Under the pieces are notes generated by a model, which was not told the DNA's origin, ran no database searches, and worked only from the letters and a program-made list of their open reading frames with translations. 64,000 nucleotides of DNA from Antedon bifida (Eukaryota > Echinodermata > Crinoidea > Comatulida > Antedonidae). Both the position numbers and the translations under genes were made by a program. Position 1 is the stretch's first letter. Each line of letters starts with the position of its first letter. The stretch lies in the NCBI GenBank assembly GCA_963402885.1, contig OY727098.1, forward strand, positions 22,554,717 through 22,618,716. The letters are read 5' to 3'. Positions 5,545 through 54,500 of the stretch are shown in pieces.

Positions 5545-5648
5545 AAAGTGGGAGTGCTGGACAATCAATTTTTATTCAATTGTGTTATTGTGAATAGCAA
5601 TTTGGGTGTGGGTGTTATTTAGAAACAATATCAAAGCTAATCAAAGGG

Positions 5649-6479
5649 ATGCCTACACTTTTCATGTTACCTCTTCCAAATGCCACTGCCAAAACATCAA
5701 ACACTTCCTACTTAGTTAAGATTCATAATACATTTTATGCCATTGTAATGTTATGTTTAAATAAGGCACGTTATCAAAATACAAATCATTTCAAAATGGA
5801 GTTCATTACAAATAATAAGGGAGGTCGCAAATTATGCTATGATGGTTATCTTTATACTAAACGTAAGTCTAACAGAAGTTCGATAATTTGGGAGTGTTCT
5901 TCACGTAGAAAGTTTGCTTGCAAAGGTGTACTACGGACAGACATCGATATGGCCGAAGTGCAGTATGTATCGGAACACAATCATGCAGTTAACATCATGA
6001 AGGCTCATGCAGAGAAAGCAAGACATAATATTATGGATAAAGCCACAACTTGTAGAGCAACTCCAGCTCAGATAGTCATTGATGAGATGGCCAAACAACC
6101 GCTCAATGTTCGTGTTACTATGACTGGTGCAGAAAGTCTAAAAAGAAACATCAGAATCAAAAGAAGTAAAAGTCATCCTGGTCAGCCACAATCGCTGGAA
6201 GACCTAGTCATTGATGGTGAATGGATGAAAACTGTTGATGACAGAGACTTTCTAATCCATGATGCTATGATTGGTAATACTGACCGTGTCACAGTTTTTG
6301 CAACTTCGGATGGTTTGCGTCACCTATGCAATTCAACAACCTGGTTTATGGATGGAACATTTAAAACCAGCCCAAAACTCTATAAGCAATCGTATGTGAT
6401 TCGCGTTGAGTTAGAAGACAATTCGATAACAACTGTATATGCGCTACTTACATCAATAACAATGACAGACAGACAGTAA
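5649..6479 (+). pseudogene. FLYWCH zinc finger - MULE transposase, C-terminally truncated
   Basis: The frame encodes 276 aa. Residues about 50-116 form a FLYWCH-type finger: a leading F, GYLY, WECSS, an AC-K-G segment and EHNH provide the C-C-H-H ligands. Residues about 215-265 (WFMDGTFKTSPKLYKQSYVI and the following YALLT) match the start of the MULE transposase domain, the DGTF segment carrying the first catalytic acidic residue. The frame then breaks in a GACAGACAGACAG run and stops; the rest of the transposase is missing. The ATG at 5796 (residue 50) is a better start than 5649, because the first 49 residues resemble nothing. FLYWCH-MULE pairs are common in animal Mutator-like elements. 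I judge it a dead transposon gene. Confidence 0.75.
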
Positions 6480-22650: not shown

Positions 22651-22859
22651 TTGATTTAGCTTTTCGCTTTTTTTTTGTATCTCCATTGAGATAGCGATTA
22701 AGAATCAGTAAATGATCCAGGATTTAGGCGAGGTGAGGGCGAGGACTTAGAATTGTATAATGAAGTGCTGAACTTGTCCTATCTTTTGCGTTGCACATTT
22801 AAAAACAATTTAGATTGGGTGCGAGAAAGTGACATTTTGGCAGCCCAACACAACATCCC

Positions 22860-23026: not shown

Positions 23027-23317
23027 GGTTGAGTACAGAATGGAACGACAATGACAACGCCGAGTGATTTTGTGACACCGCCATCATCCCCCCGTAAATT
23101 GCTTGTTGCCTTTTTGTGTCGCCATCATCTTGAAGATTGCATACGTTTCTTTGCAAACGATTATACTATCGATGACTTCCGTGCCTTGACTGAAGATGAC
23201 TTGGAAGACATTGGCATTACATGTGCTAAAACTCGCGAGAAATTAATGCGATCGGTATCAGCTGCTCGAGAAGAATTCGATGAAAATGAACAGTCTGTGC
23301 AAGATGAGGATTCAGAG
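23027..23317 (+). CDS. MAST: SAM-domain exon of the MAST gene
   Basis: The acceptor is CTCTACAG at 23026 and the donor GAG/GTAAGT at 23318. The ATG at 23051 opens 89 codons, MTTPSDFVTPPSSPRK and onward. A SAM domain runs from about residue 20 to 70: LEDCIRFFANDYTIDDFRAL, then TEDDLEDIGI and TREKLMRSV, the usual L-x3-I...F...D...L-x-LTE-x-DL-x-x-(L/I)GI...R-x-K-(L/I) pattern. It ends in an acidic tail (DENEQSVQDEDSE) that runs straight into the acidic start (SDFDDELHAVE) of the next exon in phase 0. A four-codon uORF (ATG 23041, ATGGAACGACAATGA) overlaps the start. SAM domains mediate oligomerisation or protein docking. Confidence 0.85.
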
Positions 23318-24502
23318 GTAAGTTTGTTACTGTACTTTTTAAAATTGATAAATTAAAAAGATTAATATGATTTTATCATAATGAATTAAGGTGCACCTTA
23401 TCATAATGTCATACAGAGAGACTGGGTTAAGTTCTCGACAAGTCCCAGTCTACTCAGCTGATAAATACCTGGTTGAAAATACAATGGGAGGATAAGGCAA
23501 CGCGGAAAGGAGCTGGCCACCCTACCATATACTGTAATGTAATGCCGAGGCTTAGTAAAATGAACTCCTAATGGCTCATTCCCCTACGTTCAGGAATGAA
23601 TACAGGACTTACCTTCACCTTTATCATAATTACAAAAATGTTAATATCAATCATTCACTGAAGGTAAAAAGGTAAAGATTGTCCTCAAGCTTAACTGGAA
23701 ATGGGATGGATTAGGCCCTCAGCCAGTAGTGCGGCGCGACCAGATCAGCAGCACATTGCGAGACGATCCCCTACTCTTTTCGAATATTAAATGTACTGTA
23801 CCAAGTGTACTATACAGTATGTATACAGAACCGCTGGAATTACGTCCCATTTGAAGGATGAGGCAATGAGAGTAATCAGTTTGGTACAGATAGGCTCGAA
23901 CCCATGTCTATCACATGCTGGTCCGATATTATTACACCATCACTCTCCGATATAATACAACACTCGATAGTCCCAGACGGTCTCCCATCCAGAACACAAC
24001 CGGGCCCAACATTGCTTAACTTTCGTGATCTTATGAGAACCGAAATATTCAAAATAATTAAATGTATACTTGTATGGTAAAAGGAGAATTGCTTCTCTAC
24101 ACGAACAACAGGTTTCTTGTCTCTGGATCTGTGTTTCAATGCAGTACAGTACACTATGGCCTCAAAGAGTTGAACATGACTCTTCAATTAATAATTTTTA
24201 GGATAGTTTGAAATTTGTTATGCAGCAAAGTCATTAAGTTAGCATTTATTATCTTTCTTCATCCTGGCTGTTGGGTAAACTTGATACTTTATAGTTTACA
24301 TTATCATTCATATTGCACAATGGTGTCCTATTATAGTTCAAAGTTATAAATATAATCATAATACTGTAGATGACACCACCACTGTCACTAACCTCGTCAT
24401 CACATTTACAGTTCTATTACAAGTTGATATCACCACTTACTACTATCAACAACACTATCATAGATAGATACTAAAGTACTTAGTACTACCAGTGCCACCC
24501 AA

Positions 24503-24534
<32 letters not shown>

Positions 24535-27500
24535 TCATCATAATTGGGTGCCACTAAAACCATCATCATCTTCTACCACCATCCTAACTATTAACGATCA
24601 TTTCCTTTTTTAAACCACAAACAATCAATGTAATCAAAGTCTTCCGGATTATGAAGTCTTTTAACTTCCTGTTGACTACTTGATTACTTAGGATCTGTTT
24701 CTGCTGCATAGCACCGAGTAAAAATATGATTTCTGCTAAATTGGTGCTCCCAAATAACTGTCGTCGACAATAAATGATACTATAGTTAGTTGACCAATCA
24801 AATAACTGTTATGTCGCGTTGCATGCATCTAAAAGTTGCCCGATTGGGTTTTTTGAACCATTATTTTCCGGCTGCCATTTAACCAGTTATTGACAATTTT
24901 TCCTGTTTCTACTGCAAAGATATTGGGGTTAATTTATTCACACGGTTAATAATCAGTTATTTTTTCACAGCAGAAACAGGATTTTTTTAACTTGACATTC
25001 TTAATCTAAAGATGAAATGAGTAAACGACTCCAGCAACTCAACTATGAATTAGTAGATTCCAATCAAATGAAACATGGCCATTGAAATATTCAAAGTAGT
25101 TAAATGTCAAAATTCAAAATTAGTTTGTACAATTTCTTGATAAACGATAGTAATTATGCGAATGGATTAAAATGCCAATGGCACTGAATGTATGCTTGTA
25201 CGGTAAAAGGAGAGTTGCCTCTCTACACCAACAGGTTTCTTGTCTCTGGACTTTAAAACGTCAATATTTTGATATGCCTGTTATTAGAGTGAAGATAGGT
25301 TTATCATCAGACTCCATTTTGGTAAGTATGAAGTAACGTACGTTACTTGTGTTAAGAATTGATTTTGCAAATTTAAATATTGTTTTGCTTCAAAGTTATT
25401 AAAACTATAGTAAAGAATTCACATTCCTTCCAGTAATGTGGTTGTTTTTAATTCGATGCAAATAGTGTGTTGCTAAAAAAATCTTCTTATTTTTATATTT
25501 TGAAATAGTTTTCAAGTATTAAGTCTTGTATATTGCAAAACATAGATTTTTAATTTTAGAAATAGGATGATGTAATTCGTAGAGGTTTAAGATCACAGCT
25601 TGTTTTGGGTGTGTATCGAGACCGATACAAATGCGTCAAGACCAGTAGAGGTTTACACCTGACAAGTTTGCCCTAAGGTTATCAATCCCAGCATGCTTTC
25701 TTAATGTACCTTATTGTGCAGATGACTCATATAAATAGTCAGCTATAATATTTATTATTTATGTTGGTGGTACAGTAATGGAAAATACATAAAATATGAT
25801 ATTTTTGATTTTTTTTTTCAATTCAACTATATACACTACTGATAACTAAAATAGTCTAATCCGAATGCCGGCTACATTTTTAATGTTTACTGTTCAAATT
25901 GGTATTTAATAAATATTCTCTGTAATTTTATTTAGTAAGAAATCAAAATTATACTGTTTCTGCAGTAAATTTCATTTTAATAATGTATAATTTTGATTAG
26001 TTTCAAAGTAGAAGTATATGAGGCAGTCACTAAGGATACCTTCTATTAAACAAATTTGTATTCTATTGTGATTTGTTTATTTATCAACCCAAAACATTAT
26101 CTCCCCAAAAAAATTAGTACTACAGTACTGCAGCTTATGCTTGAGAATATTAAGCAAATTAATAAGGTGGCTTCAAATATTATATTTCATTTTTCATTAG
26201 TCTTCAGCACTTTGAACATAATGTAAAATAATATGGAAAACCAATTAAAGGAACATGCTGGATTATATTCAACAAAATTAAAAATGATAATTATTATCAT
26301 CACAAAGTTTATCCTAACAGTGAGTTTATCTAACTGTAAACATTCAGTATTGATAACTACAGTACACTAGGTCCAGTTTGGCAATGTTTTTCTATGTCCT
26401 TTATACTCTACTATACATTATCCAAATCCCTTTAAGTACATGCCTACTCTACAGTAAGCATTGATAGATATGCAATGAGATGATCATTGAATCTAGAATA
26501 TTCATCGTATGCACTTCACTGGATAGATTACTTCGGCACTCGTGCTAGGCATGGTTGCAGTACCGTATCACACTGTAATCGTCAGTCATTGCTGGAGGAT
26601 GTATATTATAGTTTTAATCAACGTTTTAGTAGTAGTATAATAGCGACTTGTAGTACGGAATGGTCATCATAATTATTTCTAACATTTTCTGGTCAGCATG
26701 GTTGACCTACGAAAAAAGAGAGGATCTATTGTATCCATGGTAAATATTGACTTTTTATTTCTATATTTACTAGGTGTTGCCAATAAATTCTTCAAGTTTT
26801 TCAAAATAATATTCTTCATCTAATTATCATAACACTAGCATCCTTATATATTTTCTTGATCCATTGATTTTTGGAAGCATGTAATTCATTACAGGCTACA
26901 GTATCGTAACTTCTACAATATATTCCTACCATAAAACATTGATTACCGTAGTATAATTTATTGTAATGCTTGTATTAAATTCCATTGTAATGTAAACACA
27001 AGAGAATGAAGGAAACGTGTGTTAGTATTAAACTGTAATACAGATTGGTTGGTAGAAAAATATGGTTGGTGCAGTTGTTACAATTCTATAGACAAAACGT
27101 TGAAAGTCCATGTTGGTTGGATGGGATCAGTATTTAGAAATCTCACCATGGAGCAACTAGTCTCAACTTTTGTAAGATGAATACAAGTTATTAATTGTTG
27201 ATATAATATTTTAATTGTTTTAACTCAGAGCAAATGAATTTCTCTTTTGGAGATTAATAAAATTATTCTGATTCTGATAAAATGAGTCTCTGCCACCACA
27301 CCCTTCCACCAACCCCTCCCACTCCCAACTCTCCGTATATAAGCAGGTACAAACTGGTAGGGCACTTGGCCTTACATTATATTTTAATGATATGCCACTG
27401 CCCTCTTCCAATCTACCAACTTTCTATCCTCAACATTTAAAAAAAAAATATTAAGATATCATAAATTATAATTTTAAAGTTTGTTATTTTTCATACTGTA

Positions 27501-30500
27501 GTACTAGGCCTAGAGTACATAGAAAAAAAGATGTACAGTAATACTTATTATTTTGTTTTCATATAAATGTTAGGTTCATAAAACTTCAGTATACCTTATG
27601 AACTTTTAGTACATGATATAAAATATTAAGATATCATAAATTATAATTTTAAAGTTTGTTATTTTTCATACTGTACTACTAGGCCTAGAGTACATAGAAA
27701 ACAAGATGTACAGTAATACTTATTATTTTGTTTTCATATAAATGTTAGGTTCATAAAACTTCAGTATACCTTATGAACTTTTAGTACATGACATTTATAG
27801 AGATTTAAGTATACATTACTTTACTGAGTGACACAATTTTATTACACAGGAAGCTGTATTTAATAGCAATTCACAGTTTGATAAACCATAGCTCCTGTAC
27901 ATTAAGAACATTAAAGATACTAATAACTAAGTATTGGTAATAACAATCGTTTAGTTTCAATTTCATAAATATTGTTTATGGAAAAATAATACCATACTGT
28001 ATGATCAAATCCCATGCTCTAGTATAATCCCACCCCCTAATTTTCCATAAATTTCAAACACAAGGGACTACAATTTTTTATTTGGTTATTATGGTAGATT
28101 GTTGCAATTATCACCTACTAAGAACTAATTTATCAAGATTATTCATTAGAGGTGCCCCATATTAATAATTAGCAATATTTACCTGTAAATAACATGATGA
28201 AAAACATTGTTGTACAGTATCCTCTTAAAAAAGATGTTAAGACAAATGTTTGCAAACAGATATTGTAATCATATACTGTGTCATACTGTATTTACTGTAT
28301 CGTAGGTAGTAAATGATAATCATCTATATAAGCTGTAATGTGTATAAAATTTGTTTGGATGTACCCTTTTTTATTTTCAATATTGACCTTTTAAAACGGT
28401 GATCATTGATACATTATGTTAAGTTTGGAATAGAAACGCATGCACCATATTTAAAATTGTTTCATAAAGGCAGTGGTCTGCTTACCGGAGGAATTTTGTC
28501 TCAACCAGTATCCTATATTTATAGAAATTGTTAATATATTTATTAGTTAGTATGAGCTAAGCTTTTATACTTACATGGGCACCTGCAGTTTTGTATTAAT
28601 TTGTATGAAAAAGGCATGATGATCTGTGATAGGCTAGGCTTGGATCCAAGAATGAATCATCCAGTCCTGTTTCTAAATGGATTCAATCCAGTGTTTGGAA
28701 GATCCCTGTATACACTAGGATTTTGTACTGTAAAGCTGAACTAGTGATTAGAAATGCTTGGAGTCGGAGATGCTGTCCCTTATGTGTGTACTCGGACAAT
28801 GGGCATCCAAATTAAATGGTTTTATGGGCGGTTTTGGTAACTGGGTTACAAAAACTATTCTGACTGTTTCATGTCCATTTGTGGCTATTGCGTTTGACCA
28901 TAAGGTAAGTACGTAAGTAAGTTTGACCATTCTACTGATATATTATCATCATCATCAAATTAACGGCCAATGGTGGTAGATGAACAACCTTGTTAAAATG
29001 ATTGGATCATTTTAATATATATAAAAGCAGATGTTCATAAATATTCTCTATACTGTAGGCCTAATTTAGATATTTATATTAATTTATTACCGTAAGTAAA
29101 TTTTGTTCATAAATGTTTAATAAATAATTTACAGAAATAAATTGTTTAATTATTTATAGCTAAAAATGGTAAGTCTTGATTTCCTTTAATAGATACATGA
29201 TAAAAAAAAAACTTCAACAAATAACTGGAAAAACTTATTGAATCTACACCCCTTTGCATTAAGGGTGTCCCTGTAGTCTTTGAATGTTTAACATTAAATA
29301 TGCATTTCTGTCCAATAGCTTATCTGTACATTGCATTAATAACATCAACTCAATATCTTCTAATGTGTCATTACTTTTCTCGTGTTTGAATGGAAATTTA
29401 TTATTCAATTGTACACATTCAGTTTCTAACAAGCATTTTCCTGTGAAATGACACCCAGGGTATTGATTACCGCGAAGACTTTACAAAATGAATTTATAAA
29501 TCAAAGTAGAAATAGCGCTTAATGTTTGGTAATTATATTACTGTTGTACATTGAGTCACAAATGCATTACTTGGGTTACATGTGTAGTACATTTGCATTT
29601 TTTGCCTCCATGCAATCATTCAAAATTAGCCCTGTGTTTTAGCCTGCCTTCTAGCATAATAATTCCTATGGTTTGGGCATGGCACATGTGTGCACGACCA
29701 TTTGTACGTTTGTAAATCTTTGATTGTAATTTGGTTTCTGGCTGTGTGGCTCACAATATTGTCAATCTCAAATCCTAAGTTTAAAGATTTATTGTCCCCC
29801 AAAAACATGAAAAATTAAGATTAATTAAATCAGACTTTGAATATGTTATTTTGTAGTTAAAATAAATTAATCACTTCTTTAGAAAAAAAAAATGTAAACA
29901 AATTATGTTTTCACTTATAAAATGACAAAATAAATGGTTAAATTCAACCAAAAACACCAATTGACCATTTTTTTTTTCAATCCAATTTTTGGTCAAAGTG
30001 GATAGCTATTTTGTTACATTAAAATGGCATATTCAACAACAATTTTAAGAATTATTTTTTCAGGGGGACAATACATCTTTAATAAGTCTGTTTAAACATT
30101 TTGTTTATTTCAAGCCCAGGACAAGACAAGTTTTTTTCATAATTTTTTAATTGTAAATACTTTACATGTTTTTCCTAAAATGGTAAATCCATGATTATAA
30201 TTAATCTTATTTTATCTATTTCAATGCATCCACCCATCCATAATTTTGCTATTCATATCGTTTAGTTCACTCGGGGAAAAATTGACATATTGAATATTAG
30301 AGAGATAGATTTTGCCCTGTAAATACTTAATTATAGATAATAGTTGATCCGCACTACTCATCACTGTAGTAAGCATTGGGAATTAAATGAGATCCATGTA
30401 CTAAGATCCTAACACGCAAACTGTTAGTATTTAGGTTGTAGACTAAAACAACCTTGTACTTATCTTAAAATTAAATTATTCTAAAATTTAAATTTATAAA

Positions 30501-33500
30501 GAAACCAATTTTCTGTAGTTTGTAATTTTTATTAGATGGTCATGATTAGATATTACACTGTCAAATTTTCTACTGTATAAAAATAAATTAATGAAATCTA
30601 TAAAATGATGTTGATTAAAATTTACAAAATTTGAATCCCTTAAGGGGACACCTTGAAAATCCAACAAAGTGTTCCTTGAATAGAGGGTGTTGACATTAGT
30701 GTTATAAAACATACCCTCTCGTTCCTTTCATGGGAAATAGATTTGTCCCCAAAGAAAGGGTTCTACTGTTTTTTAATTCCAATTTCATTAACAATAAAAA
30801 CCAAACAAGGTTAAAACCTAAGATTACTATATTTAGCCTTTGGTGTGGCTTGAGTGTGAATATTCTATGATACGGATTGAATCTCTTGCACTGTATTTTC
30901 ACAGTTTAAGCATTGGTAGCCTGGTTGGAGTTTACTTGTCTAGATTTGGTTTCACATTCCTCTCTCCAGGTTTATTTTTTCCAGACAGAATTCTACTGAG
31001 TGAATATCAATAGGCAACATCTTGCATACTGTATTACAGACATCCTATATAAAGGCTCCTAAGAATCAAATCGGTTTGCTCGATATTTTGAGTGATCTCC
31101 TGTCTCCCACTAAAGGTGCAATTTATCCCAATTTGGATACAAAAAAACATCTCGGTTGTAATACATTTTGGCAACGCATTTTCAACATCAACATTTTCCA
31201 CCCAGTGCATATATCAGCATTTACACACACTTGAAAACCACTTGGTTTACTCATTACTCTAATGTTCTGTCTACACTATCAAACTGTATGTGACAATAAA
31301 ATGTAATGTGCCTATATATGGACACGATGACATCATATCAATACCATATTTGAGCACATCATATTTTTTTTGTCAAACTGGTTTGATAGTGTAGACAGAG
31401 CTTAGGTTACCTATGTACCTTTGAGTTTGGATAAGGTGGGAACACCAATTTACAGTGAACTTTCATTGTTTTTATTCATCATACAGTAAATTCCTTTCCC
31501 ATCTCCTTTCCCATCCTTTCATCATCCTACCTCTGTCCTTTGAATTCATCTGTATCATCAGCCTTTAATTTTAAATAAAATCATGAAATATAACTTAAAT
31601 TTACATTCTGTCTAATATTACTCACTAATTTCTCAAGGTCATAAATCATCACTTATAAATATTAGTAAAAAGTAGCAACAAAATATTAGTTTAAGGTTGG
31701 CAGGAAATTAAACAGTTTTGAAGGAAATTGGTAATTTACATAGTTGCTCGGTGGAATACTGGTCCATGTTGTAGGTAATGGTCGTCTGTATGTAAACAAG
31801 ATATTATAGGATGAACATTTGAAGTACTACTAATCAACATTAAAGGACGTCTCTAATTTCAGCATGTAAATGGATTCATCAAACCAATGAGAAAACAACC
31901 CAATAGTCACTTATGTGTGTGTTAGTATATTACGTTCTGTGTTTTGCTTCTGTATTAGTTATTGATAAATTAAATGCTAACTGTATATATTTATGCAGAA
32001 TATCCACACATGCACTGCAGATAAAACAGCCATTTCAACCATATTACATTGTGGGTTTTGTATTGACTGTTGTACTATGATGATGCCATCAAATAAACAG
32101 AACTCTTGACTAGCACCTCAGTGTCATCTCCATAGATATTCAAGTGCCCTTATTGATGTTTCCAAATCCAATGATTGTGTTTAACAGTTTCTGAAGGATA
32201 TTCTTGACTTACAAAAATTCATCACTGACATAGCAATTTATATATCCTAATAGTTTCACAAAGAAAAATGAAAATAATTAATTTTCAGTTAAATTCAAGT
32301 GTTGCTGGTATTTTTTATTGAGTGTTCAGTAGGTGTTAATGTCTTCCTACGTAACACATGCAAAAATGAATATTAATTGCACAGATGCATAATGATAAAA
32401 AGAATACAGTTACAATAATGATCATAAGTTATAGTTGGAACTAAAAGAACTTATTGTTTTGTGTTAACCATAACAATATTACAGACATATAAAGTGTTTT
32501 TAAAATTCAACACACCTTGAATTTTCGATGTGTTTCATGTGTTTTCATCAGAAGAATCCTAAGATGTTATGAGGATTGATGACCTTCTATGACCTGGTGA
32601 TATTTTTATACCAGCAAGACTAAGGAAGGGGCATGCTTCCGCTACAAGTAAAATAACCATGTGCATAATTTACTCCCAATTTCTTGACATTTTGTAATAT
32701 AGCAATTAGTATCATAAAGGTGGTCAGTATATATTTTAAATCATTTGTCGCTATTAGTATTAAACTGTAAAATCTTGACCAATTTGTAATCTTTAGTATT
32801 GGGATGTGTTCATACTCTCTTTTTCTTTCTAGACACCATTTTCTGATAGATTTCTTGTTACTGTATCATTTTTGTTTGAGAATCCTCGCTTCACTATGTA
32901 TAACAGACTAATATTGATTTTATTGATTTATGACAAGTAAAGCCCTGTCCAAGTCAATCAAATGACTTCCCTTATTGGCTGCACAATTCCACCAATGCCA
33001 CGCCTTCATAAGCTTGATGTCACTTCACACTATAATTTATAATAAAATATTATATTTTTCACTGAAGATAATTTTATATTCTCGCAAATAAGGATATTGC
33101 TCAAAATGTTGATAAAGAGTATATTTTTTTTAATAAAGTACATTTTTTTTTCAATGGATTGATAGATTAATATTTTCCCCAGACTTGTTTCTGTGCCAAT
33201 ATTCTTCACTCTGTATGCTAACATAACATAGACAATGCTTAATGTATAGGTTATTGAATGATGATCCTAATGGATAATAGTTAAATGTTAATCTTTTCAT
33301 CATGTCTGCCGCCATTTTCACTATCATTGTTTTCGTTGTTTATCGTTGTTACCATTTTCACTTCCTGTCATTTTTTTTCAACAGAATTGTTCTAAATTGA
33401 AAAGCTGATAGTATTTCTGAGTTGTCACTACAATTTTTAATTGAACTGAGTGCTTTTCATAAAATAATTAATTTAATAACTTGCTATATCATTGATTTGA

Positions 33501-36500
33501 ATTTATATTGGCTATTTTTTTTGGCATACAATGATCCGAGTTGGCAAGCTGTGTTGGATCAATGTTCTGTTATTGTTCTTTTTTTTTCTATTTTGTCTTC
33601 AAGTTGGTCATTTTCATTGGCTAGTAGTTAATAAACTCTATTTAGGGAAAACATTTTATAAATAATAAAATATCCTGTTTTTATTGGTGACCAGTCACCC
33701 CGACACAATTTTTAGACCTAATAATAAAGATGGAAGCTTCGAAAAAAGTCAAATATGGTCTTGTCATATGCCTGAATGTACCTCTAATTAAATAAAGTGA
33801 CAGGGAGGGCATTCTAATTTCCATATTAAATTTTAATTTAATCAAAGTAGTAACTGTGCCAAGTTCAGTTTTTGACCGGGGCTACAGTTTAGTGATTATG
33901 GAATTTGATTCCAGAATGTGTTTTGGTTCGAACTTTTTTCAATCTAACTAAACCGGATAAAGTAACTAATACTTTATATGTGATAATCAGAAAATGATTT
34001 AAATGAATGAAAATATGAAATGAAAATGTTAATTAGTTCAAATACAGAATGTTGATGGATATTTGATTTGACTTGGATTTGGATTTTGTACATTTATTAT
34101 ATATTTTGGGAAAATGATTATCGATTATTTTTTTTTTACAAATCCAATAAAATATTTCTAGTGGAGAGTTTGAAATGTTACTACACTAGTAAATATTGTT
34201 TAATACGAGCAGGTTCATCATTCAACATTAACTTGACCTCATACTTTTCCGGACTTATCATTCCACATAACATTATTTCCAGGATATTGTTGACATTCAT
34301 CTTGTATGATGACACTTAGTAGCTTTAAAATATTACGTACATTGATATCTTAAGTAAGATTCTGACGTCGTGCAAAATTACGTACTAAACCTGAAATAGA
34401 TGTATCTTATGCCAGGTGAAACTGACAGTTATTTCTACCTTGCAATTTTCTGTCATAATAATCAGCTTTCTGATTTCAATATTCAGTTTAACATTCATTG
34501 TGTATATATAGTAGGTATTCAGTTTGTGTTGAGTAAAGTTGTCGAGCAGTTGAAACGGGTGCTGCAAATCATTAGTCATACAAACGGCACAGGTTTAAGG
34601 TTCTCCTCGGCCATGATTCTGGTGGTAAAACAAGTCTTCTCTGATAAGGACTATCAAGGAAAACAATTTTTTTGTGTTGCATACAAATAATTAATTAATT
34701 TGTATCATTGTTTGTATTGCTTAACATAGCAATGTATTGTTTTTTTCATTTAAATTTGAAAAATCATTAAAATTATATTGTATATAATATAAGTATTTAT
34801 TTTATTGGTCAATCACTTTAAAATGACCTAGATGATTTTAATATAGCAAATCCCAAAGCAGGATTAGTTATTTGAAATGTGGGTTGTATATATGTTTATC
34901 CTTGAACTTAGGCAATTATATATAATATTCCTTGATATTGATGGTGTGTTAACTTTATGAAATAATAATTAGGAAATATGTAGGAAGAAAATAAATGAAA
35001 ATTGTATTAAATTTATGAATTAATCATCCTTAATGCTGATCTATTTTGTGGGTTGAGGAATAATGTCTACTACTATTTGTACTACTAAACCAAATCTGAA
35101 AATGTAATAAATATTTTTATAAATGTTTTGTTTTATTTTTTTTTCTAAAGTTGTTGGTTGCAGGAAAAGTGGTACATTAGATAGAATTCATAGTATTATT
35201 GAATTTCTGAATGTTTATTAAACTATTTTGTTTATTTTAATTTAATTTTATTTAATCCTTTATTGGGGAATGTACCATTGTCTGGGATAGGTGTATTCAA
35301 TGAATATGTATGTATTCCGGTTGTAGCACCCTTCTCAAAGAGAAATAGGCCAATGTTGGTTTATTCTGGTAAGCACTGAGCACTCATTGACTACCAACAC
35401 TACTTCTGGTTTGTGTGTTTTTAGTAAAACCCTGAACTAGTATAAATTAACTAGAAAGGTTTATCAACTGTTTATCAATATTTACAGAAATGTTTGCCCA
35501 CTTCATGTCATTCAAATGTATAACATACTTCACACATGCATTACATCTATTAATCATTTTTGCACTAATAAATTTGGTGACGATAACCATTTATTCTAAT
35601 CAGGGTACAATATTTTATGACGAAAAAAAAGAGACCTTGGACTGCCAATAACATAGTTAGCTGATGCTGTCAATTCATATCAATATACAAATAACGGACC
35701 ATATCTGCAAAGAAATGTTTGTAGCTAAAATATGATTTTAATGATGATAGATGAATATTTATCATGATTAATTCAACCCAGAAGGTATCTTCTTACCAAC
35801 ATTGAATGATATTTTCCAGATAAACTAGATAAAAAGTTGAAAAGTTGACTTCCTTTTATTGTGAATATCTTTAGCTCAACTTTTTTGTGCAGTGTCTTGG
35901 GATTTGACATTTGGGAACATTGAAACTAAATAACAACTGTTTGCCAAGTTCTATTTTACCCATTTAAATGTTCAATTAGAGTAAAATTCTTTTTAAAACC
36001 ATAATTGACAGCATGCATGCGAGTGTCACCTAGATTGACTAGGTCCAACAAAGGAATTTTTTTTTAGATTGAAATTAAATTAATCGGTTATGAACCATTT
36101 ACCAAGGAATTTATTTATAACGTATTGTGGTTGATTTTGCTTTTATTTTTTATTATTTACATGAAAACAGAAAAATCATATTGTGGATAATTACTAGTGA
36201 ATATGCAAACTCATTGCAAAAATAACTAGATTAATGTTTGTAAAATTTGAAAATGAATAAAGTAGAACTTCTCCCTTGTGAGGGGACACTGTGAAACTAA
36301 AGAGAATGTTTTAACACCACATCTAACCCTTATTCAGGGGACATCCCTATAAGGGGATATTTAAGAGGGGCTCTATTGTATAGGTATAATAAAATAAAAT
36401 AAAAGACTATGTTTCTCCTGATTGATTGATTGATTGATTGCCTTCAAATTTCTAAACAAATTTTTATCAGGAAGAATGATGAGGACTTTTAAAATAAGCA

Positions 36501-42500: not shown

Positions 42501-45500
42501 CTCAATAGTCGTCCTAAGTTCATAGTCCAATAAACAGTACCATGTTATTTAATAGTGGAGTAATCATTGAATTGAAATCACTAAATATCCTCACTAAAAA
42601 TATATATTCTCAAAACAGTATCCATGGCCATGTTGAATCCTTGAATATGAATAATAGATAATTATGCGTACGAACTAATGGTCACATACAGTTAATTTGT
42701 TGGCCGGTTGGGTGAGGCCTATTCATCAATCTTTTATTGTAGTCTCTTCTGTGGCAGTTGCTTCCATTCCTCTCCGATAACTCTAATGTCATTTGTTTTG
42801 TCATCCTCTGTTTCTTCTATGTGAGTAAAGTGTCCAGTGATGGACACCTGTAAAGTGTCCAGTGAGTGGACGCCTTACTCACATACCTGTATTTAATTTT
42901 CTATTTCAATGTCTATTCATGGACCTATAAATTTATAGCTCCATGGTTTATTTAAGGATTATGTTTTACTTCTTTTAACTCTTGTTTACTCTATGTAATG
43001 ACATTAGACAATGTAATGTTTGTGTAGCTTCTAGTTCAATTGTGTTAATAGCTTTGCAGTATCTACAGTGCTTGATTGAATGATGCCTCATACCTATCAA
43101 AACATAAAGCTTACTGACAAGACTTATGACCATAGCATCATTGGCAACAAGCTTGAGAAATTCAGGTGTTTAAATGTCAACATAAATTCTTGTTTGTTCT
43201 GCTCAAGTGATGAAAGTAAGCACTTTAAACAAGAAATATTTTCTATGTTCGGGTCGTTGCGACTAGAATTTATGGAACATTTACAGGTAATTGTATACTT
43301 CTTATATGGTCATTGACTGCTTCAAAATGTTATTGTTCATTAAAATGAACAGGTAGAATTGATTGCCAGTAGTTACGATATGACTTGGTAATCTGCTTGT
43401 CACATACTCGAGACAATGTATGTTAAAATCTGTGCTAGACAGTCATGTCTGAGATGTGGAACACAAGCAAAGATCGTACCACTATACCAGTTTGAGGGAA
43501 AATTTGTTGTAAATATAACAAAAACAATTTATTATTATTTGGCAGTGTCATGCTTGATTGAGAGAAGGCAGTAGTTTGGTGTTTGCAGAATTACTATGTA
43601 TTCATGACTGCTGCATAAAATTGGTTCGTGAAGATACTCACACTCACTCGTTTACACAAAATCGTAAGGGCGTGTGGCGCAGTGTGTTGGACGTTTGACT
43701 ACTGATCGTGAGATCGAGGTTCGAATCCAACTCTCGCCGCATTGCTTGTATCCTTGGGCAAGATACTTTACTTACGTTTGCCTCTCTCCACCCAGGTGTA
43801 TAAATGGGAACCCGGTTAGATCAAGACACAACTTTGCGCTGATTGCTAGCTGCATTATGGGAGTATGTTATTGTTTCCATACTGTAGGTGTTTGATCAGG
43901 AAAAAATGACTGGGGTAATAATGTTCAGTGCTTAGAGGTTTCACAACATTAGACACTATATAAAAACAACTATTCCTAATGATCAGGTTATTACAGTGTT
44001 TTTTAGTTTCACATCCTATAGAAATATACATCAACAATGCAAATAAAGTGTGTTAGAATTATATTTTGAAATTCATGGATTTATACAGGATTTGAATTCT
44101 GTTAGAACTTTCAACTTTCTTGATATTTTGTTACTGGGTGGCTGGTAGTTTGTTAAAAATAAGGATATTGACTCAATTCCTCAGATGGGTAATAAACACG
44201 GCTATCGTCACTTGAAATGCATCCAAAGGCTCTGGAAGTTGGAGATTGCAAGATTAGACATTTCTTTTAAAGGAGGATAAAGTTAATATCTCCTCAGGAA
44301 ACGGCTGTGAATGATTTCTTAGTGGTTTACAAAGTCTGCAGTACTCTACTTCATATTTTTACTAACTAAGTTTATAGACACTGTTTAAATACCACTAAAA
44401 TGACATTTGTTTTGCTTTGAATGTTTGTCTTCTAATACTGTTCAATATTTGATGACACAGTTGGTCATTTTATATTAATTCTTCCTAATTTGTTTATATT
44501 ATATTGTGTACTTTGTTCAAAACACTTTTGCAGATCTAAGGGAAAGTGGGAAATTATCTTGAACATTAATATATAATAATATTAATACAAAGTTCACCAA
44601 GAAATCATAAATTATAATGTTATTCTAGTAGAACGTTTAAACCATTGGTGTGTAACCTCATCAACCAGTAATAGGCAAATCATGTTAATCTTCCTCCAGT
44701 GGATCGTTAGTGAAACTCATATCCTTCTAATTATCTGCCTAAGTTGATAAAGTGACCATCCTTCACAAACCTACAAACCATTTCAGCTGTTGTTGTTTGT
44801 TCATGTAATGTAATAAATTAATGCATCAAGTAAGCGCCCTCCTACATAATGCATTAATGTATTCCGTATGTTTTATGTTGGATTTGTGCGACTTAAATGC
44901 TTGAAATGAAGATAGATGTGTAATACTTGTGAAGTTCATGTTGCTTAGAACATTACATCATCGTTCTTTCAAGAAGTTTTTCTCTATAAATCTTATATGC
45001 TGATAATTCTATTCGGTACGCAGTATCAATACATTTTGTAGTTTTACTTTTAGAAAGCATATTTTTGATTGGTGTATATTGTTGTCGTTTTTGAACCATT
45101 CTGTACCAGGCTAGCGTTCGTTCTTGCATTTGAAACAGTGTCATTTGAGCCTTTTTTTGAGTCGAATTTGACAAGGTCGTACCAGCTGCTAGATCCAAAC
45201 CTGGGGATTGTGATTCATGCATTACGATTGTTGATCCGTAGTTGGCAACGATTTGGCAAACTTATATTTCAGTTGCATCAACTGTGATTTTTCTCTGGCA
45301 GATGTTGTAAGTGAGGACAGTGTGTGACTATCCATAATATACCCAAAAGAATTTCTCAGAATCTCTGAAGATTTTGAAGCTTAAGCATTTTGAAAAAACT
45401 TTTGTTGTTTTTGTTTGATCTTTATTGTTCAGTCATCTCAAGTTAATTTGAGAAACAAATAACTTTTTAAAGGAAAATTTATTTAGTTTACCTTATTTAT

Positions 45501-48500
45501 TGCATTAATAATAATCATAAACAGTAAAGCATACTTTGTAAACAACAGAGAAACAAAACATCTAAAAATATCAGTGATTCTGTACTGTAGCTTACCTGAT
45601 GCTGTTATTATGATAAAAGTATTATTAGTAATACTGTCATACTGTTATCTAAGTGTATGGCAATAATAGGCTAGCTTTATGGTGCGTTAATAGCATTAAT
45701 ATTCTCAACTTCCTGGTTCTAATGATATGGTACTCTTTGTATTCCTGGCAACCACTACCGGCAGAACTTGCCAGTTAGACGGACATCCTCAACTGGCGCT
45801 ATGAATCCAACAATCGTGAGGCCTCTACATGCGCGCCGACCCCGGGCGCAAATACCACACCAGTTGCGGTTAGTGGTAAGTATCCCCTCACCTTAGGAAT
45901 TTTCTTTCCATTCTATGTTTGGTTTTCCTGCTTGATTATATTATTATACCGTTATGATTTGTATTTTAATTTGCTCTATGGTGTGTGATGATATACTGTT
46001 TTATATTTTGGGATTCTCATACCTTACATTGTGCTATCACTGCATTGAGGTATATCTACAATTGCTTGTACTGTTTTAAGAGGCCTGTATCTGTATTTAT
46101 ACAATATATCATCAGGTATTTCTGCTATGCAGTGTACTTTGATTCCTTGTTCTATACAATATAACTGTTCAAATGATATCTTATTGTTATATCATAATAT
46201 GTTACACTGAATGTATTGTATGCATCTGAATGTTTCTGATACATTGTGACTTATGTGTCCAACTATCTATATTAACAGGATACATCATGTAGACTTGGTC
46301 TCAAAAACATAATGTTATATTATATTCTTGTGTCCCAACAACTATATCCAAACAGATACTTTTGTTACCAATCGTTGAATCACTTTGTCTTGTGTCCACC
46401 TAACCTAAAGATATGGTAATGTTGTTTTACCATTGTTGTCAACAGTATTTTGTTGTGTTGTTTTGTGTCTACCTCATGAAGTATTGACCTTTCGTTTTAA
46501 CTATGTGCCATGTAACTATTCAGCTATTGAGTCCGTTCTGCACATGCTCAAATCTTTCTGAGAATAGTCTAGTGGCACAATGTGAAAACGAAAGTTCCTT
46601 GTTGTAATACTTATGAATATTAGTTCAACGTATGTGTTCTATACAGGTTACATCATTCACATTCAATTTCTTGTTTCTTCAATTTTTTGATTTGTGTATA
46701 ATGGGTTTGAAAGTTAAATATTTCATTTTTCTTATCTATTATATTTTTTTATATAAAAAAGTAAACCATAATAATTTTATTGTTGTTTATACACAATTTG
46801 AATTCCGAGAAAAATAGTACACATTTCAAAATAACAAATGCAAAAATAGTATAATTCAAGAACACTGAAGAATTTTCTAGAATACAAAATCAATGAAAAG
46901 TTTGTCAGGAATTTGTATTCATTGAATTTGTATACTAAAAACGTAATTGCCATTGAAGAGGATTTACCCATAATCATAAATGGGGACTGGTATAGGGAAC
47001 TGTATGCCTACTGGGAAGGTAAGACTTTAGGGTATATTCATAATCTGTAATCGATTTGCATACCAGTAATATTATATATTTCTAAACTACATTTAACTAT
47101 ACATGTTTATAACCTTGGCTATAAACATGGAAAGGAGTGGTTGTAGTGCATTATACTATCGATGGACTTCCTTAAATATGATTATGTATACGGTATTTAA
47201 TCTCCATTTCTATTTGCCAGATAAAGCTTTGAGCAGTATGTTATGTACTGTTTACTTTTTTTAAGTCTATGCTATAATTTTACTAATTCACTTCCTCTAT
47301 ATAAATCTGTTGTTTTTGTGAAAGTGATTTCCTACTCTATTATATTATCTCGCTAATTTGAAATCCTTGGCCCATGCCTAAATATCAGATTTAATTTATT
47401 GAATATTGACACAATTACACAGACCTTTAAAAAATAACAACAAGTTTACAATCAGAGTTATCAAAGACATCTTTCATGTATTTTACCGCTTTTTTTCTCC
47501 TGACATTCACCCCCAATATCCACTTTCTGTTCCCCACATCCACCTCAACCACAATATCTATTTGCATAAGTATGCACTAAAAGGTCACTCTAGAGTGGGA
47601 AATTATAATGTTTATTAAAACATTTTTACAATTTTTTAAAATGTTTTTGTCTTATTTTTTTTCTTCAATATTTCCTTTTATTTCTGGTATGTTGTGTACT
47701 TTTGAAAATTAAAGTTTAAAAATTGATTTTCCCTCTTTTTAAAATGTATTGATCACATTTTTTCTTTTTTATTTATTTGTGTAAAAATATTAGGTGTACC
47801 TTTTTTAAATGAGACAAATTCTGATTGATATCATAATTTGACTTAAAGATTAAACCTGATTAAGATTGACAGAATGGGAAGGTCTTAAAAATAAAATCAG
47901 GCAGTGTCCTCAGCTGTTTGGTCCTAAAAAGCTGTCGGAAGCCTAGACTTCCTTAAGTAATGGTCACATGATCAGAAATTGAGCTAGAACTTTATGTGTC
48001 ACAGTTCAGTGGTTAGCCAGTTGGCAGCAAGGCAAAAAAGTGAAGTGTGCTTTTAACATTATGTAAAGATCAGTGGAGTTTAACGATTGGTTTAGCGGTA
48101 AAATAGTAATCACACTCGATAATGTGCTATGATTTTTAAGCTTAATTATGTCTAATGTATTCAGAAGGACTGTGTATTAAATTGGAGGTAGGCCTACATC
48201 AGCTGCATATGGATCTTTTGAGTATATCTGCCAAATAGTGATTATATTTTTTTTATTGCTGCTGTGCTATTGTGTTTTGACCATGTATACTACAGGACAT
48301 GTGTTTCTTCAAATGTGTGATTCGTAGCTGGTGAATGATAGATACCAATCTATCATTACTGTCATATCTCATGAGATCCTGTGAGATATGTTCTTCACAA
48401 ATTTACTGAAGGATATGGACTATCTAGGATGTTTCAAAGTTTTTACAGAATCTTTGATTGACTTTCTTGTTGGCGAGGTAACAAAAATTATTATTTTATT

Positions 48501-51500
48501 TTTATACACTTTTTATCATGGATACAAACACTGTAGTAATATATACCAATTGAAAGAAAATTGCTTTGTTTATATCTAGTTTAAGATTGAAACATTGCAA
48601 TGGTATACATTTTAGAATATTTTCAGTACAGCCTAGAGTGTAGTCGTTAATGCAGCCAAAAGCTATTTTATGGCCTTCCACCTTTTACACAGCACCCTAC
48701 GAGGGGTCTTGCCACTACTCGTAAAGAATTGCTTCCCATTCTACATTTAAGCTTATTTGACTAACATCTCCTCATTCCTCTGTACAATAAATGATTCACT
48801 TTACAGTGCCTCATGATAACAATTTAAAGACCCAGCAACATTTGTGTCATCTTAAAAAGTTAGTACAGGTAAACAAGATGTATTATTGCTGTATACTATC
48901 TCCATTTTTGTTAACCTGGTTTAATAAATATTTACAATATATTTGTCTTTCATTTATATTCAACTCTATGTTTAATAGTTTCTACAACAACATTAACCCT
49001 TTGCTTATTAAAGTTAATATTTTACAGCATTATTAAAAGTGCTATTATTGTTAATTAATTGATTTTAATATGTAGGAGATTTATTAGAAAAAAGCTTAAT
49101 TTATTGTATAAATTTATTCTACTATCACTAAATTTACACCTTTTTTGTATTATAAAATGTAAATATAAATTATCGATGCATTAAATACATTTTGTTGCTA
49201 TGGAAACGTGTACATGGTCTAGTGTCACAGATGAGTCATAATGCATCCATTAGCATGGTAACTTATACTATTATTTCTCTTTCCTCCATCCAAAAAATGT
49301 TCAAATTAAAGTGATTTTAGAATTTTTAATCTCGTAGACATTTTTAAATTTTACTTAATTTCTTATCATTTTTTCCTGTTTAGGTATATTAAAGTATATA
49401 AAAAATTTTTTTCAATTTTTAAATTTCATTTAAGGTGGTTAAATTACTGTTTTGGTCTTATTTTTTTCGATATGCTTTACTGTTTACAGTACATATTTTA
49501 ATTTAACTTAAAATATAGGATTATTTTTGTAAAAAGGTGAATTTCAAAGACTATTTGAAGTCCTTTTTTTACTGTTGTGTAAAACTAAAATATAAAGTTT
49601 TTACCTTGACTCTCTTTGGCAAATCATTGTTTTCAAACCTACTGAAAACAATAGTGTTAATTGTCTGTAGGGAGTTTATTGCTTTGCTGTCAAATGAGAA
49701 TTATATACTTTGCATGTTTTATACTGATATTTAAAGTATTAAACTATACTGTTAAAAACCTGAATTGATACAAGTCCAAGCTAGGATATAACTCCACTTA
49801 ATAATGTTAAATAATACTTTACTGAAATAAATATATTAACTAATATTCCAATACCGTGAGCGAGTATAACGTGTATTAAAAATCCCAAAAACAAATTCAA
49901 CAATAATACCAAAGGTTGACATACATTTTCGTCACATTAATACATGGCAGATTTTGTTCTCTTCGCCTGCGGCACATTAGCATGAGCACATTAAAGTGTG
50001 TTGTTTGTGTAAAAGCTTCTGTATCCTGGGATTATACATAGATTGTTTGTCTACTTTTATCTCATTTACTCTATGACATTGGCAATTAACAGTTTCCTGT
50101 TGTCTTGAATCTAATTTGATTTTGTCTGCTTTTGCATCATTTTCACTCATTCTACTTCATTTTTGGTCTCACCAGTAGGAATCTTCAGTCTGTATTATTG
50201 CTATATAACAACATTAAACCTGAATGTATTTCACATGTACAGCAACATATAAACAATTTAAAATGTTTGTTCAGACCTGACCTTTAAGAATGATTCTTAT
50301 CATATTTTGTGAAGCGAGACTAGCGTCATATCCACATTTTATATTTAGTTGTCTAATTTTTTAAAATGCAGTTGGTCAGATGTTTGTCCTACTCTGACGT
50401 AATTGTGCTAAATAATACTTAGTAGTACATAAATTTGCAAGTAATTCCCAAATGGGCTAGAACCCACAACCTCTAGCGTAGTGTTCCTACCTAGACCACA
50501 AACTTGCGCTGATGACTATGGTTAAGTTCTAAGACCCCAAGAAAGCAGTCGGTATATACTGCACCAAAATGTAATAGTTTGATACATTGCAAGAAATTTG
50601 TTTTTAAATTTTCTACATATTTTTCTTATTTTTTTATGTACAGTATACTAAACTACCTAATAAATTATCAACAAACAGCATAACATCATGTGGGGAAAGA
50701 AAGCTAATTTACATTAATCATTTTATTCATGTTAAAGGATGCTGAAATAGTATATAGGTGAATTTGAAAGAGAAATTCAATAAATGTTACTTTGACCTTA
50801 ATACCTGTTTTATAATAAATCTTCTATGATGACTTTGTGGTTTTTATTTATAATGTTTTAAAAGTAATTTTTTTAGCAGAGGATATAACATCTATTTAAG
50901 AAACATTAATATCATAGAATATTTTAATAATGTACAAGAACGATTAAACATTTTCCGTAACGGAAGAGAATAATTCAACTGAAACATAATATCCTGAAAA
51001 ATGTACGTGCAAATTAGTTAAATTTAATTAAAATTTTCTTATCAGCATTTCATGGTTGTATAATACCATTTCATATAATGTTGCTAATGAACCACTGTAC
51101 ATGCTTACAGCTAAAAATGATTTGTTATAATTATCATTCATAAGATTACATGTTTAATTCATTAATTTGATACGGTAATTTATTTTATCAGAGATTTGTC
51201 ATATGAGAATGATATGAAATGTTGGTTGTTGCTCATAGTAATTAATAATTACATAAGTTGATTAATATCTTCCTCTCATTTTATTTGATTAAAGCATAAA
51301 GAAAATAGAATTATTTACAACTAAGTTATTTTAAGAACATGCTTCACAGTTTTTCATTATTCATATTTTATTTTCAGACTTTCTTTGTTTTGATATAAAT
51401 ATCTCTTTATTGCCTTTTATATTATGTAATTAATTTTGAAATATATTGTTTTCCTCAGTCTGATTTTGATGATGAGCTCCACGCAGTTGAAGCGCAAACA

Positions 51501-54500
51501 AAGCACCTTACTGCTGGCCTAGCTAACTCCATTCCTAGGAATCTGCGTCTAGGACGTCCACTATCGGTAGACGAGACAAAATGTGCCCGTCGTGGAAGCC
51601 TTGGAATGGGCAGTTCTCTCAGCCACAGTGTAAATGTAAATGCAAGTTTTCAAAACAGTACCACAAATGCCTTGATCTTGGGGGATTCCTCAAACCTATT
51701 GAGGGTACGGCAGATGCTAGGACAATCAGCACCTTCATTAGGACCAAGTCTGGTAAGTCTCTTTAACATGTTATTTTCCGCTCACAAAACATACAACAAT
51801 GTTAGGTATGAAACGAGGGTTATAAAATTAAATAAAAAGCTGTTCCAATATAAGTTTTAGAAGAAACTTTTACGTCATTGCCTTCAATTACAGTACCACC
51901 AATGGGTACAAGTATAACCTTTTTTGTTTGTCAACGACCTATATCTATAAGAAATTTATTCAATTTCCAACGCAATTATTTACTTTTATCTACGATCATT
52001 AGAAATTAAGAGCACTCAGAATAATTTGGTTATTGTGAAAAACCCACTTTGACATGTTTTTAAGAGTTAATCAAATCAGATGATGAAAATTATTCTCAAG
52101 TCAAATAATTTGTTTCTAATAAGTATTATTTCAAACATGTGGTTCAAATTGAGATTGCTGCAAAATTTAACGAGTGTACTTCATGCTTCATTTCGATTCA
52201 CAACCTAATTAGAAGGCGTGGGTGACGAGTTATACAGTACAGTAGCTTTAAACCTTTTTTTTCCTACGATTTTGAGAGACTAGCTAATACCAAACATTAT
52301 TCCTAAATCTATTTTGCAGTCCTCTGTTGTTGGAGTAGTCTGCTGTCCTAAAATATCAATTTGTGATGACGGCTACTACCTACTACAGAGGGGGTGAATT
52401 ACTACACTGCAGATACTAAATTGTAAAATAAATACATTTGTAAAAAAGTTCTGGTTCTTATTTTATTATTATCAGTGAAGTTAAAAATAAATAAAGGTTT
52501 TGTATTCATACTCAATGTTTCCAGGTATAAAAATAAGTTTATATGTAGCCAAATTACACATTTCTATATGAATAAGGAATTTCACACAAGGTAGTCATCA
52601 ATCAATTGAATTGTCATAAATGATTTGATCAAATTAAATTTGTTTGCAAGGATGAACTCCGTTTTTGAACACAGGAAATCAGTTAATAAGTGGTACATAA
52701 GTTTTAATTTTATTCAAATTGCCTTTTTCAACTGTGACATGTACTTTACTACATCATAAAAGTTTATTTACATTTTATGATTTTCTTTAGAAAGAATCGT
52801 AAATCATCTTTATATCTAGTTTCAATTCCAATTCTATTGGGTAATGATGTGATCATGTTTCTTCTACTGTAGGTAGTAGTGTTTCATATTGACATTGTAC
52901 TGCCTAACAATTATTATTAATACCCTTTGATTTTCTAATTTCATATAAAAATAATGAAATAACTTAAAATTAGTTATAATTACATTTTTCAGATTTATTT
53001 ATTCATTTGACACAAGCAGTCAATACATTGTGTCCGCAACGTCTGATTTGGAAATCTTTTTTTTTTTATTAGTGGTTGGAGAATAATGTTTCAAAATGAG
53101 TAATTTGCCCTTTCAGTATTGCTTTTAGGTCAAGATTGGTATATTGGAAGTTTCATAAGGTCTTCTTGATATCAGTAAAGTCAAAAACAAGGTTTTTATA
53201 AATCAGAAATTGATTATTAGACAGTTTTTTACAGCTGTAGCATGACACTGACAGGATCCCGTCGTGTCATAGGAAGGTTGTTTTTCGGGGGTTTTCTTGT
53301 ACTGTACCAGTGTGTACAGTCTGCCCTTGGCACTCATTTTAAAAGTTTCTGTCAGGTCAATTATAATTGTCTTCAAAGTCATCTTTTCAAAAAGTTACAC
53401 AATCCATCTATTCAGATAAAAAAATTAGGTTTGAAATTTTAAATTATTCTTAAAATGTGTTACTGAAACACTTGGCTAGGCACTTTAAACCATGACTCAT
53501 TTATTCCTTCAAGTGGGACCCCTACAATGCCGGTGATCACAAAACCATTAAAACAAATCCTATCACTTAACCGATTTAAAGTTAACATCTACAGTAGATT
53601 GGTTGAAAACTGTTCTAGGTTATTCACTTATTTATTAAATTCATCATGGATACTGTGTGACTGTGTCTTAAAAAATTCTATCTATATACACACATATTTT
53701 TCCTGATTAACTTAATGTACATTACAGTTTTAGTTGTTTTTACTGTAGCGTAGTACTTTTGAAAATTGTTTTCTTAGAAAATTAAAGGTACTTTGAAATA
53801 ATATGCTACAATTATGTAAAACTATACAAAATCATTTATACAATCAGATTCATAGATGGAAAAAGATTAGAATTTAAAAACCAAATGAAGAAGTATCATT
53901 GGTCCCTAGTCTTTAAGGAGAATAGTTCCTTATAATATAGAGGCCACTGTTAGAATAATTTTTCCCACCAAATGCATACTGTAGATGCAGAATGTGCAAT
54001 ATCTTTCAATGCCTCAAATACAGTTGTATAGTAAACGTTGTTGACGTGTAGGGAGTGGTACTGGTACCCACGTTTACTTTGCATCTGTGGTTCAGAGAAC
54101 TTTGGTTAACCACTAATTTCCAGTTGCAGATGAACTAATTATAAGATGACAGAAAAGTTTTCATTTAGATTGTGTATTCACCAGAAATTTACAATTCAGT
54201 TGAAAGCACCCCTAGTTAATAGTAGCATATGACAACACTGATTTGCCATTTAAAAGTTTGAATACAAAGTTGGGATTCAAGCCTAATTCTAAGTACTTTG
54301 TGATTTGATTTGTAGATTTAGTAAAGAGCCAAAGTTAATTTTACTAGAAATGAACTAAAAGGTACTAACTCTTCTGCACAATCATTACATTAAAAAAATC
54401 AAAATAAGCTGCAGAGCACAGTGTCTTATTTTATTGTAGAATTTTTAAAAGAAAAAAAAATCTTACCAAAAAAAAGAAGAAAACTAAAAGAAAGCATGAC

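Follow-up and report, generated by a model that had tools for sequence, protein, structure and literature searches.

In a published survey every MAST homologue found has, by SMART, a single copy each of the DUF1908, kinase and PDZ domains (PMC10419289), and a second survey (PMC12024977), a study of Mast2 (PMC12732324) and the paper on Drop out (PMC4011086) give the same tri-domain plan in the text available to us. MAST1-4, Drosophila Drop out and C. elegans KIN-4 have in common DUF1908, a kinase with an SNGAYG loop and HRD, DFG and APE motifs, and a MAST-type PDZ domain. SAM domains are described in kinases of other kinds; the SAM-bearing N-terminus of Ack1 is reported to promote dimerisation, membrane placement and autophosphorylation (PMC2987765), and the SAM of yeast Ste11 to dock on the Ste50 adapter (PMC4177888). 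Here we analyse 64,000 nucleotides of the crinoid Antedon bifida (hereafter the window; assembly GCA_963402885.1, contig OY727098.1, positions 22,554,717 to 22,618,716 of the forward strand), which very probably hold the 5' end of a MAST gene whose first coding exon encodes a SAM domain and is joined by a predicted splice of ~28 kb to the rest of a SAM-DUF1908-kinase-PDZ protein of ~1,500 residues. The Antedon model would differ from the MAST1-4, Drop out and KIN-4 proteins, as described in the text available for them, in its SAM domain ahead of the exon that carries the peptide LGQSAPSL. Ack1 and Tnk1 are likewise cytoplasmic kinases with an N-terminal SAM, but they are tyrosine kinases and lack DUF1908 and PDZ domains, and Ste11 is a Ser/Thr kinase with a docking SAM, but a mitogen-activated protein kinase kinase kinase and not an AGC kinase.

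The SAM exon lies where an initial annotation, made from the letters of the window, had put it, and its SAM identity and phase-0 end were likewise borne out by splice sites, start codon and Pfam match. An acceptor (...cctctacag/GG) precedes position 23027, an in-frame TGA at 23030-23032 is followed by the ATG, and the donor after 23317 is in phase 0. The translation matches PF00536 (SAM_1) with 33.9 bits (E 4.2e-8; residues 20-71, profile positions 10-62 of 64), above the curated gathering cut-off of 23 bits, and the same residues score 28.6 bits, again above the gathering score, in the full 1,502-residue model. Genome-wide searches (315.6 Mb in 27 contigs) returned one full match to this exon, the second best reaching only 21.9 bits. 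Judged by its ATG, its donor and a Pfam match above the cut-off, the SAM exon is real. Among solved structures phmmer places this SAM closest to those of Caskin-1, SASH1, ANKS3 and Bicaudal-C (E 0.002 to 0.02), a weak similarity by which no subfamily can be assigned. Head-to-tail SAM polymers often pair an acidic ML face with a basic EH face. Charge counts in the Antedon domain give eight acidic and one basic residue at positions 37-54 and five basic and three acidic residues at 55-75, a pattern that appears compatible with head-to-tail packing and is no proof of it. Another SAM_1 match (28.5 bits) is present on the minus strand at contig positions 22515729-22515857, ~39 kb before the window start; it is separated by ~62 kb from the plus-strand SAM exon of MAST, which it does not closely resemble in sequence.

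The LGQSAPSL exon begins after the acceptor ...cctcag/TCT and ends at the phase-0 donor CTG/gtaagt; its phase-0 frame is open throughout and both other frames contain stops. By itself it matches no meaningful Pfam family and nothing in PDB, and its identity was therefore taken from published peptides and then from the exons downstream. LGQSAPSL is expected by chance 5.9e-6 times in the six frames of the window. A literature text search for GQSAPSL found two sources, both on MAST proteins: a human MAST4 phosphopeptide, SQALGQSAPSLTASLK (PMC12518468), and a Tasmanian devil MAST2 phosphopeptide, RNQSLGQSAPSLTAG (PMC12953634). The peptide is thus common to mammalian MAST4, mammalian MAST2 and the Antedon protein, its universality among MASTs not being established. 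No DUF1908, kinase or PDZ motif was found by motif search within the 64-kb window. When 100 kb 3' of the window were added (164 kb in total, in continued window numbering), MAST motifs appeared in order, again on the plus strand, and Pfam recognised exons of the DUF1908 and kinase domains, beside which a PDZ-like exon was found; these exons, at 72.6-90.3 kb, settle the MAST identity of the LGQSAPSL exon. The initial annotation had this exon right in position and in kind, and missed the two short likely exons that follow it in the window (exons 3 and 4).

Exon 3 comes after ...APSLGPSL, and its K matches that of human MAST4 ...APSLTASLK; it scores 17.3 bits, the highest of seven phase-0-acceptor candidates in 51760-72600 (runner-up 10.9). 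A direct splice from 60437 to the DUF1908 exon at 72617 was rejected because the phases are incompatible, and it was this mismatch that led to the search that gave exon 4. Exon 4 enters in phase 2, leaves in phase 1 toward 72617 and joins without a stop, and with a score of 10.5 it ranks first of 23 phase-compatible candidates, the best with a different donor scoring 7.1.

The resulting gene model has 22 predicted coding exons, all on the plus strand, with 21 of 21 introns bounded by GT-AG and a single terminal stop (Table 1). The exon chaining was rough, and the final model was for that reason finished by hand from Pfam-supported frames; all its splices, the join 23317-51459 included, are predictions. 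DUF1908 (PF08926) matches residues 220-488 with 360 bits over profile positions 1-280 of 281, and the kinase domain (PF00069) residues 528-801 with 204 bits. The PDZ domain at residues 1037-1118 scores 23.5 bits (Pfam cut-off 23.2), and all four PDB matches of this stretch at E ≤ 1e-8 are PDZ domains of MAST2, MAST4, MAST3 and MAST1. The kinase motifs of the model read ISNGAYG, HRDIKPDN, TDFGLS and IAPEV; MAST kinases are described as having Ser in place of the first Gly of the loop (PMC10419289, in the text available). The model combines DUF1908, an AGC-type Ser/Thr kinase with the loop Ser, a C-terminal MAST-type PDZ domain and LGQSAPSL, which are the marks of a MAST kinase. For the DUF1908-kinase stretch, greatwall kinase supplies the top two among the best 60 of 155 PDB matches at E ≤ 1e-50. 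All six DUF1908 matches in the genome (E ≤ 0.001) fall within one gene, the MAST locus, and no other kinase gene bearing DUF1908 was found.

Table 1. Exons and other elements of the Antedon bifida MAST locus. Positions count from the first letter of the window; c.n., continued numbering.
Feature	Position	Strand	Remarks
SAM exon	23027-23317	+	24 nt of 5' untranslated region, ATG 23051, 89 codons, acidic tail, donor GAG/gtaagt
MAST exon 1 (SAM, coding part)	23051-23317	+	
Inferred intron	23318-51458	+	28.1 kb, CpG-depleted, T-rich plus strand
Uncertain exon-like stretch	45765-45875	+	111 bases, phase 0/0, 37 codons NLPVRRTSSTGAMNPTIVRPLHARRPRAQIPHQLRLV, strong gtaagt donor
MAST exon 2 (MAST N-terminal exon)	51459-51752	+	98 codons, phase 0/0, contains LGQSAPSL
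MAST exon 3 (likely)	60409-60437	+	29 nt, KEFGVTRRG + 2 nt
MAST exon 4 (likely)	62980-63041	+	62 nt, SKHGRKVASPVLPRAHSPVSQ, first Ser common to preceding exon
MAST exon 5 (DUF1908)	72617-72765	+	c.n.
MAST exons 6, 7	73061-73212, 76543-76654	+	c.n.
MAST exons 8, 9	79936-80109, 80387-80485	+	c.n.
MAST exons 10, 11	81110-81233, 81938-82005	+	c.n.
MAST exons 12, 13	82931-83016, 83307-83481	+	c.n.
MAST exons 14, 15, 16	84413-84504, 85429-85509, 85716-85786	+	c.n.
MAST exons 17, 18 (kinase)	86123-86350, 86559-86786	+	c.n.
MAST exons 19, 20	87311-87560, 87680-87930	+	c.n.
MAST exons 21, 22	88480-88700, 88979-90274	+	c.n.

The best-supported gene model, in part supported, makes the SAM exon the first coding exon of MAST. 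The SAM exon itself, the order and strand of the MAST domains, the compatible phases and the single DUF1908 locus are read directly from the genome sequence. Exon 2 has a coding score of 31.3 bits, 23.6 of which (49 codons) precede its first in-frame ATG at 51606; an upstream coding exon ending in phase 0 is therefore expected. Among 26 candidates running from an ATG to a phase-0 donor between 16.7 and 72.5 kb, the SAM exon ranks first with 35.7 bits, followed by candidates of 14.7 (with its ATG inside exon 2) and 14.0 bits (the exon-like stretch at 45.8 kb), and it is again first when initial candidates in any phase are admitted (n=45). With another training set it leads 19 candidates in 16.7-51.4 kb, at 30.2 versus 10.1 bits. 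In all 164 kb it ranks fourth on the plus strand, the top three lying inside MAST's own exons, and an initial candidate on the minus strand at 138992-139426, 75 kb beyond the window, scores slightly higher (36.7). Under a codon model trained without either exon, the SAM exon (24.1 bits) and exon 2 (21.7 bits) are the top two coding-like segments on both strands of 16.7-64 kb; third comes a low-complexity minus-strand run of Asp and Gly (21.5 bits), and the fourth scores 15.9. The join of SAM to MAST proposed by the initial annotation accordingly gains from the shared plus strand, the 0/0 phases, the lack of a better initial exon and the full MAST gene downstream, and the 28-kb splice on which it depends is still a predicted one.

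The SAM exon could also be one of several alternative first exons, with SAM-MAST a minor isoform, an arrangement that we think unlikely and that would be compatible with the SAM exon as a first exon of MAST while lowering its weight. Alternative starts could be provided by the in-frame ATG of the GC-rich stretch at 45765-45875, as a small promoter-exon, or by the ATG in exon 2. As an initial exon, however, the former scores 14.0 against 35.7 for the SAM exon, and exon 2 is coding-like ahead of its first ATG.

The stretch at 45765-45875 bears on the join in other ways. It has 56% GC and nine CpG, contains an in-frame ATG and encodes mostly basic residues; its score as an internal exon, 24.4, is within the range of the MAST exons; two of the exon-chaining runs (penalties 10 and 14) include it whole, and the third (penalty 6) includes it from 45775 on. 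Against its being an exon, it is coding-like on both strands. In the same scan, sequence lying antisense to known coding exons scored 27.0 (opposite a PP2C exon) and 19.1, so that the value of 24.4 is not proof of an exon. As a repeat the stretch was discounted, having one match only in the genome in a search that skips very common words. It may be a cassette exon between SAM and MAST, which we hold to be rather less likely than not; a cassette exon, an alternative first exon and a regulatory element are all possible. If it is used, the direct acidic join of SAM to MAST is one isoform, or wrong. The phases agree with the initial picture of an acidic SAM tail running into the acidic start of exon 2, and the detail may nevertheless be mistaken, as this basic stretch could intervene.

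Read on to the stop at 45896, the same stretch could also end a separate SAM transcript, and the SAM exon would then belong to a small gene of its own, closed by such a terminal exon or by a retained-intron form, with the first coding exon of MAST elsewhere. We regard this as improbable. The terminal candidate 45765-45896, in phase 0, is the best of 250 with 20.4 bits, and translation past the 23317 donor yields VSLLLYFLKLIN and then a stop after 12 codons, with an ATTAAA at 23352. The stretch scores more, however, when taken as internal and ending at its strong gtaagt donor, the runner-up terminal candidate reaches only 7.9 bits, no rival MAST initial exon comes near the score of the SAM exon, and from 23.5 kb to exon 2 there is no 1-kb stretch of high, promoter-like CpG content.

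The composition of the interval is consistent with the SAM exon opening the MAST gene. The ratio of observed to expected CpG (CpG o/e) is 0.43 over 24.0-51.4 kb versus 1.13 over 19.5-22 kb, and 500-bp windows have a median of 0.76 at 17-23 kb (n=12) versus 0.39 at 24-51.4 kb (n=54; p 3.4e-5, one-sided). The drop comes 3' of the SAM exon, with the best change points placed at 25.7 and 24.2 kb. In 1-kb windows (step 500) from 23.0 kb to exon 2 the ratio is at least 0.8 in the first only, and beyond exon 2 four such windows, at 55.5-58.5 kb, have at least 0.8. Across the window CpG depletion forms a mosaic, low in gene bodies and ~1 or above at 7-12 kb and 19.5-22 kb; the body of the Vasa-like gene described below has 0.45 and that of the PP2C-like gene 0.57, the stretch between them 1.01. 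We infer from this profile that gene-body methylation starts after the SAM exon and continues to MAST. AT skew over the interval is -0.061 (bootstrap -0.078 to -0.043) and beyond exon 2 -0.054, and at 1-16.6 kb the bootstrap intervals include zero. The excess of T over A, which spans 17-64 kb, fits transcription of the plus strand, and together with the CpG depletion across 28 kb it fits a single gene body. Two repeats lie in presumed introns, a 175-nt tandem duplication (98% identical) at 27445-27794 and an 82-nt direct repeat (99%) at 57637-57718 and 58002-58083.

A number of points weigh against this gene model. Both the codon model and the splice model are crude (762 to 959 training codons), and for exons 17 and 18 there are 24 boundary combinations that keep the frame, one of which was adopted on visual inspection of its splice sites and of how far its sequence resembles a kinase. 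Exon chaining at all three penalties (6, 10 and 14) prefers a tiny initial exon at 22712-22732 with an acceptor at 23039. Three exons are also absent from the chain at every penalty, one with DUF1908 (72617) and two of the kinase (86123, 86559). A penalty of 10 costs it another kinase exon and a penalty of 14 every kinase exon, and at 6 several implausible exons come in. AT skew is no marker of the gene start, having the value -0.069 at 17-23 kb too. Nor were relatives found of the SAM exon among 21 pattern matches in viral contigs and 143 in genome contigs, or of exon 2 among 24 pattern matches in viral contigs. The possible end of a separate SAM transcript at 45896 belongs on the same side. 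The tiny initial exon was itself set aside as implausible: it has seven codons, nets 5.3, 1.3 and -2.7 bits after the respective penalties and depends on splicing to 23039. With or without it the SAM domain is unchanged.

Other features of the window lie mainly upstream of the SAM exon. On the minus strand, 118-2179 encodes CCHC zinc knuckles (three by Pfam, at 1380-1742) and FGSS/GGG repeats and resembles the N-terminal region of Vasa (DDX4), a name given by eye with the helicase not seen. A 293-codon open frame on the plus strand at 5598-6476 has a FLYWCH zinc finger (51.6 bits) and is possibly derived from a mobile element, and a tRNA-Ala (CGC) was called on the minus strand at 11177-11249 by ARAGORN (Rfam tRNA, 70 bits at 11178-11249). 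PP2C-like exons occupy 13997-16569 on the plus strand, with 27.2 bits to PF13672 for 13997-14248; we presume the encoded protein to be related to fly CG9801, which is PP2C-like. Outside this contig, the mitochondrial contig of the genome (15,844 bases, 73% A+T) was translated with the echinoderm/flatworm code; where its cox1 aligns with mammalian cox1, all three AAA codons stand at Asn positions, and ATA codons stand at conserved Ile sites. Long open frames that by eye are mitochondrial genes occur on each strand, which makes a flatworm unlikely, mitochondrial genes of flatworms being on one strand. The code points to an echinoderm, probably a crinoid, the A+T content being close to the 72.73% of the crinoid Comaster schlegelii (PMC8820819).

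As far as our literature searches reach, the combination of SAM with MAST is unreported, the published MAST plan, in the text available, being one of three domains. The premise of the initial annotation, that MAST proteins are known for DUF1908, kinase and PDZ domains and not for SAM, agrees with both surveys as far as their available text goes (PMC10419289, PMC12024977). Among the titles and abstract starts listed we found none joining SAM to MAST; there was no 'SAM domain' in the papers found that name both MAST kinase and DUF1908, no text with DUF1908 and sterile alpha, and, in a multi-term search, none pairing 'microtubule-associated serine' with 'sterile alpha motif'. In the available text of a PDZ drug-target paper 'microtubule-associated serine' and 'SAM domain' co-occur far apart, and the terms MAST2, MAST4 and 'sterile alpha motif' all occur in a study of DNA methylation, the start of whose abstract draws no link between SAM and MAST. 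PMC4177888 describes no SAM-MAST in the text available. It is nonetheless possible, if somewhat doubtful, that SAM-MAST is widespread among predicted invertebrate proteins and has gone unremarked in reviews, which would bear on novelty only. Text searches of the two surveys for echinoderm terms were negative, and the absence of SAM there accordingly says little; on the other side stands the single set of three domains in all homologues that the first of them examined, by SMART, in the text available. We know of no other AGC kinase with a SAM module.

As to how such a protein might act, SAM self-association or heterotypic docking on a partner SAM protein seems the most likely course, with about as much to be said for it as against it. 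In the scheme we propose, and give an even chance as a whole, the SAM domain would self-associate or dock on a partner SAM protein, this association would raise the local concentration of the kinase, and the SAM would, alongside the PDZ domain, bring the kinase to the cortex or to microtubules. The predicted C-terminus of the Antedon protein (position 90274, continued numbering) reads RVTSL, which fits the class-1 PDZ ligand form X-S/T-X-V/I/L (PMC10419289) and could bind the protein's own PDZ domain or that of a neighbour. The PDZ domain of MAST2 is reported to form homodimers (PMC10419289, in the text available). A SAM-MAST with its own polymerisation module could assemble from both ends, through the SAM and through the PDZ binding the protein's own C-terminal RVTSL. 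Tentatively, and with rather less confidence, the single MAST of Antedon, and perhaps that of early deuterostomes, may be an AGC kinase of SAM-DUF1908-kinase-PDZ form with a SAM polymerisation module that vertebrates, flies and nematodes later lost or never acquired. The comparative question raised is where in animal evolution the MAST N-terminus gained or lost its SAM. The MASTs are large AGC kinases, little understood and without a clear account of their regulation; if the model is true, at least one AGC kinase has a SAM module, and a natural SAM-bearing MAST would suggest that control in this family can work through oligomerisation or through docking on a scaffold.

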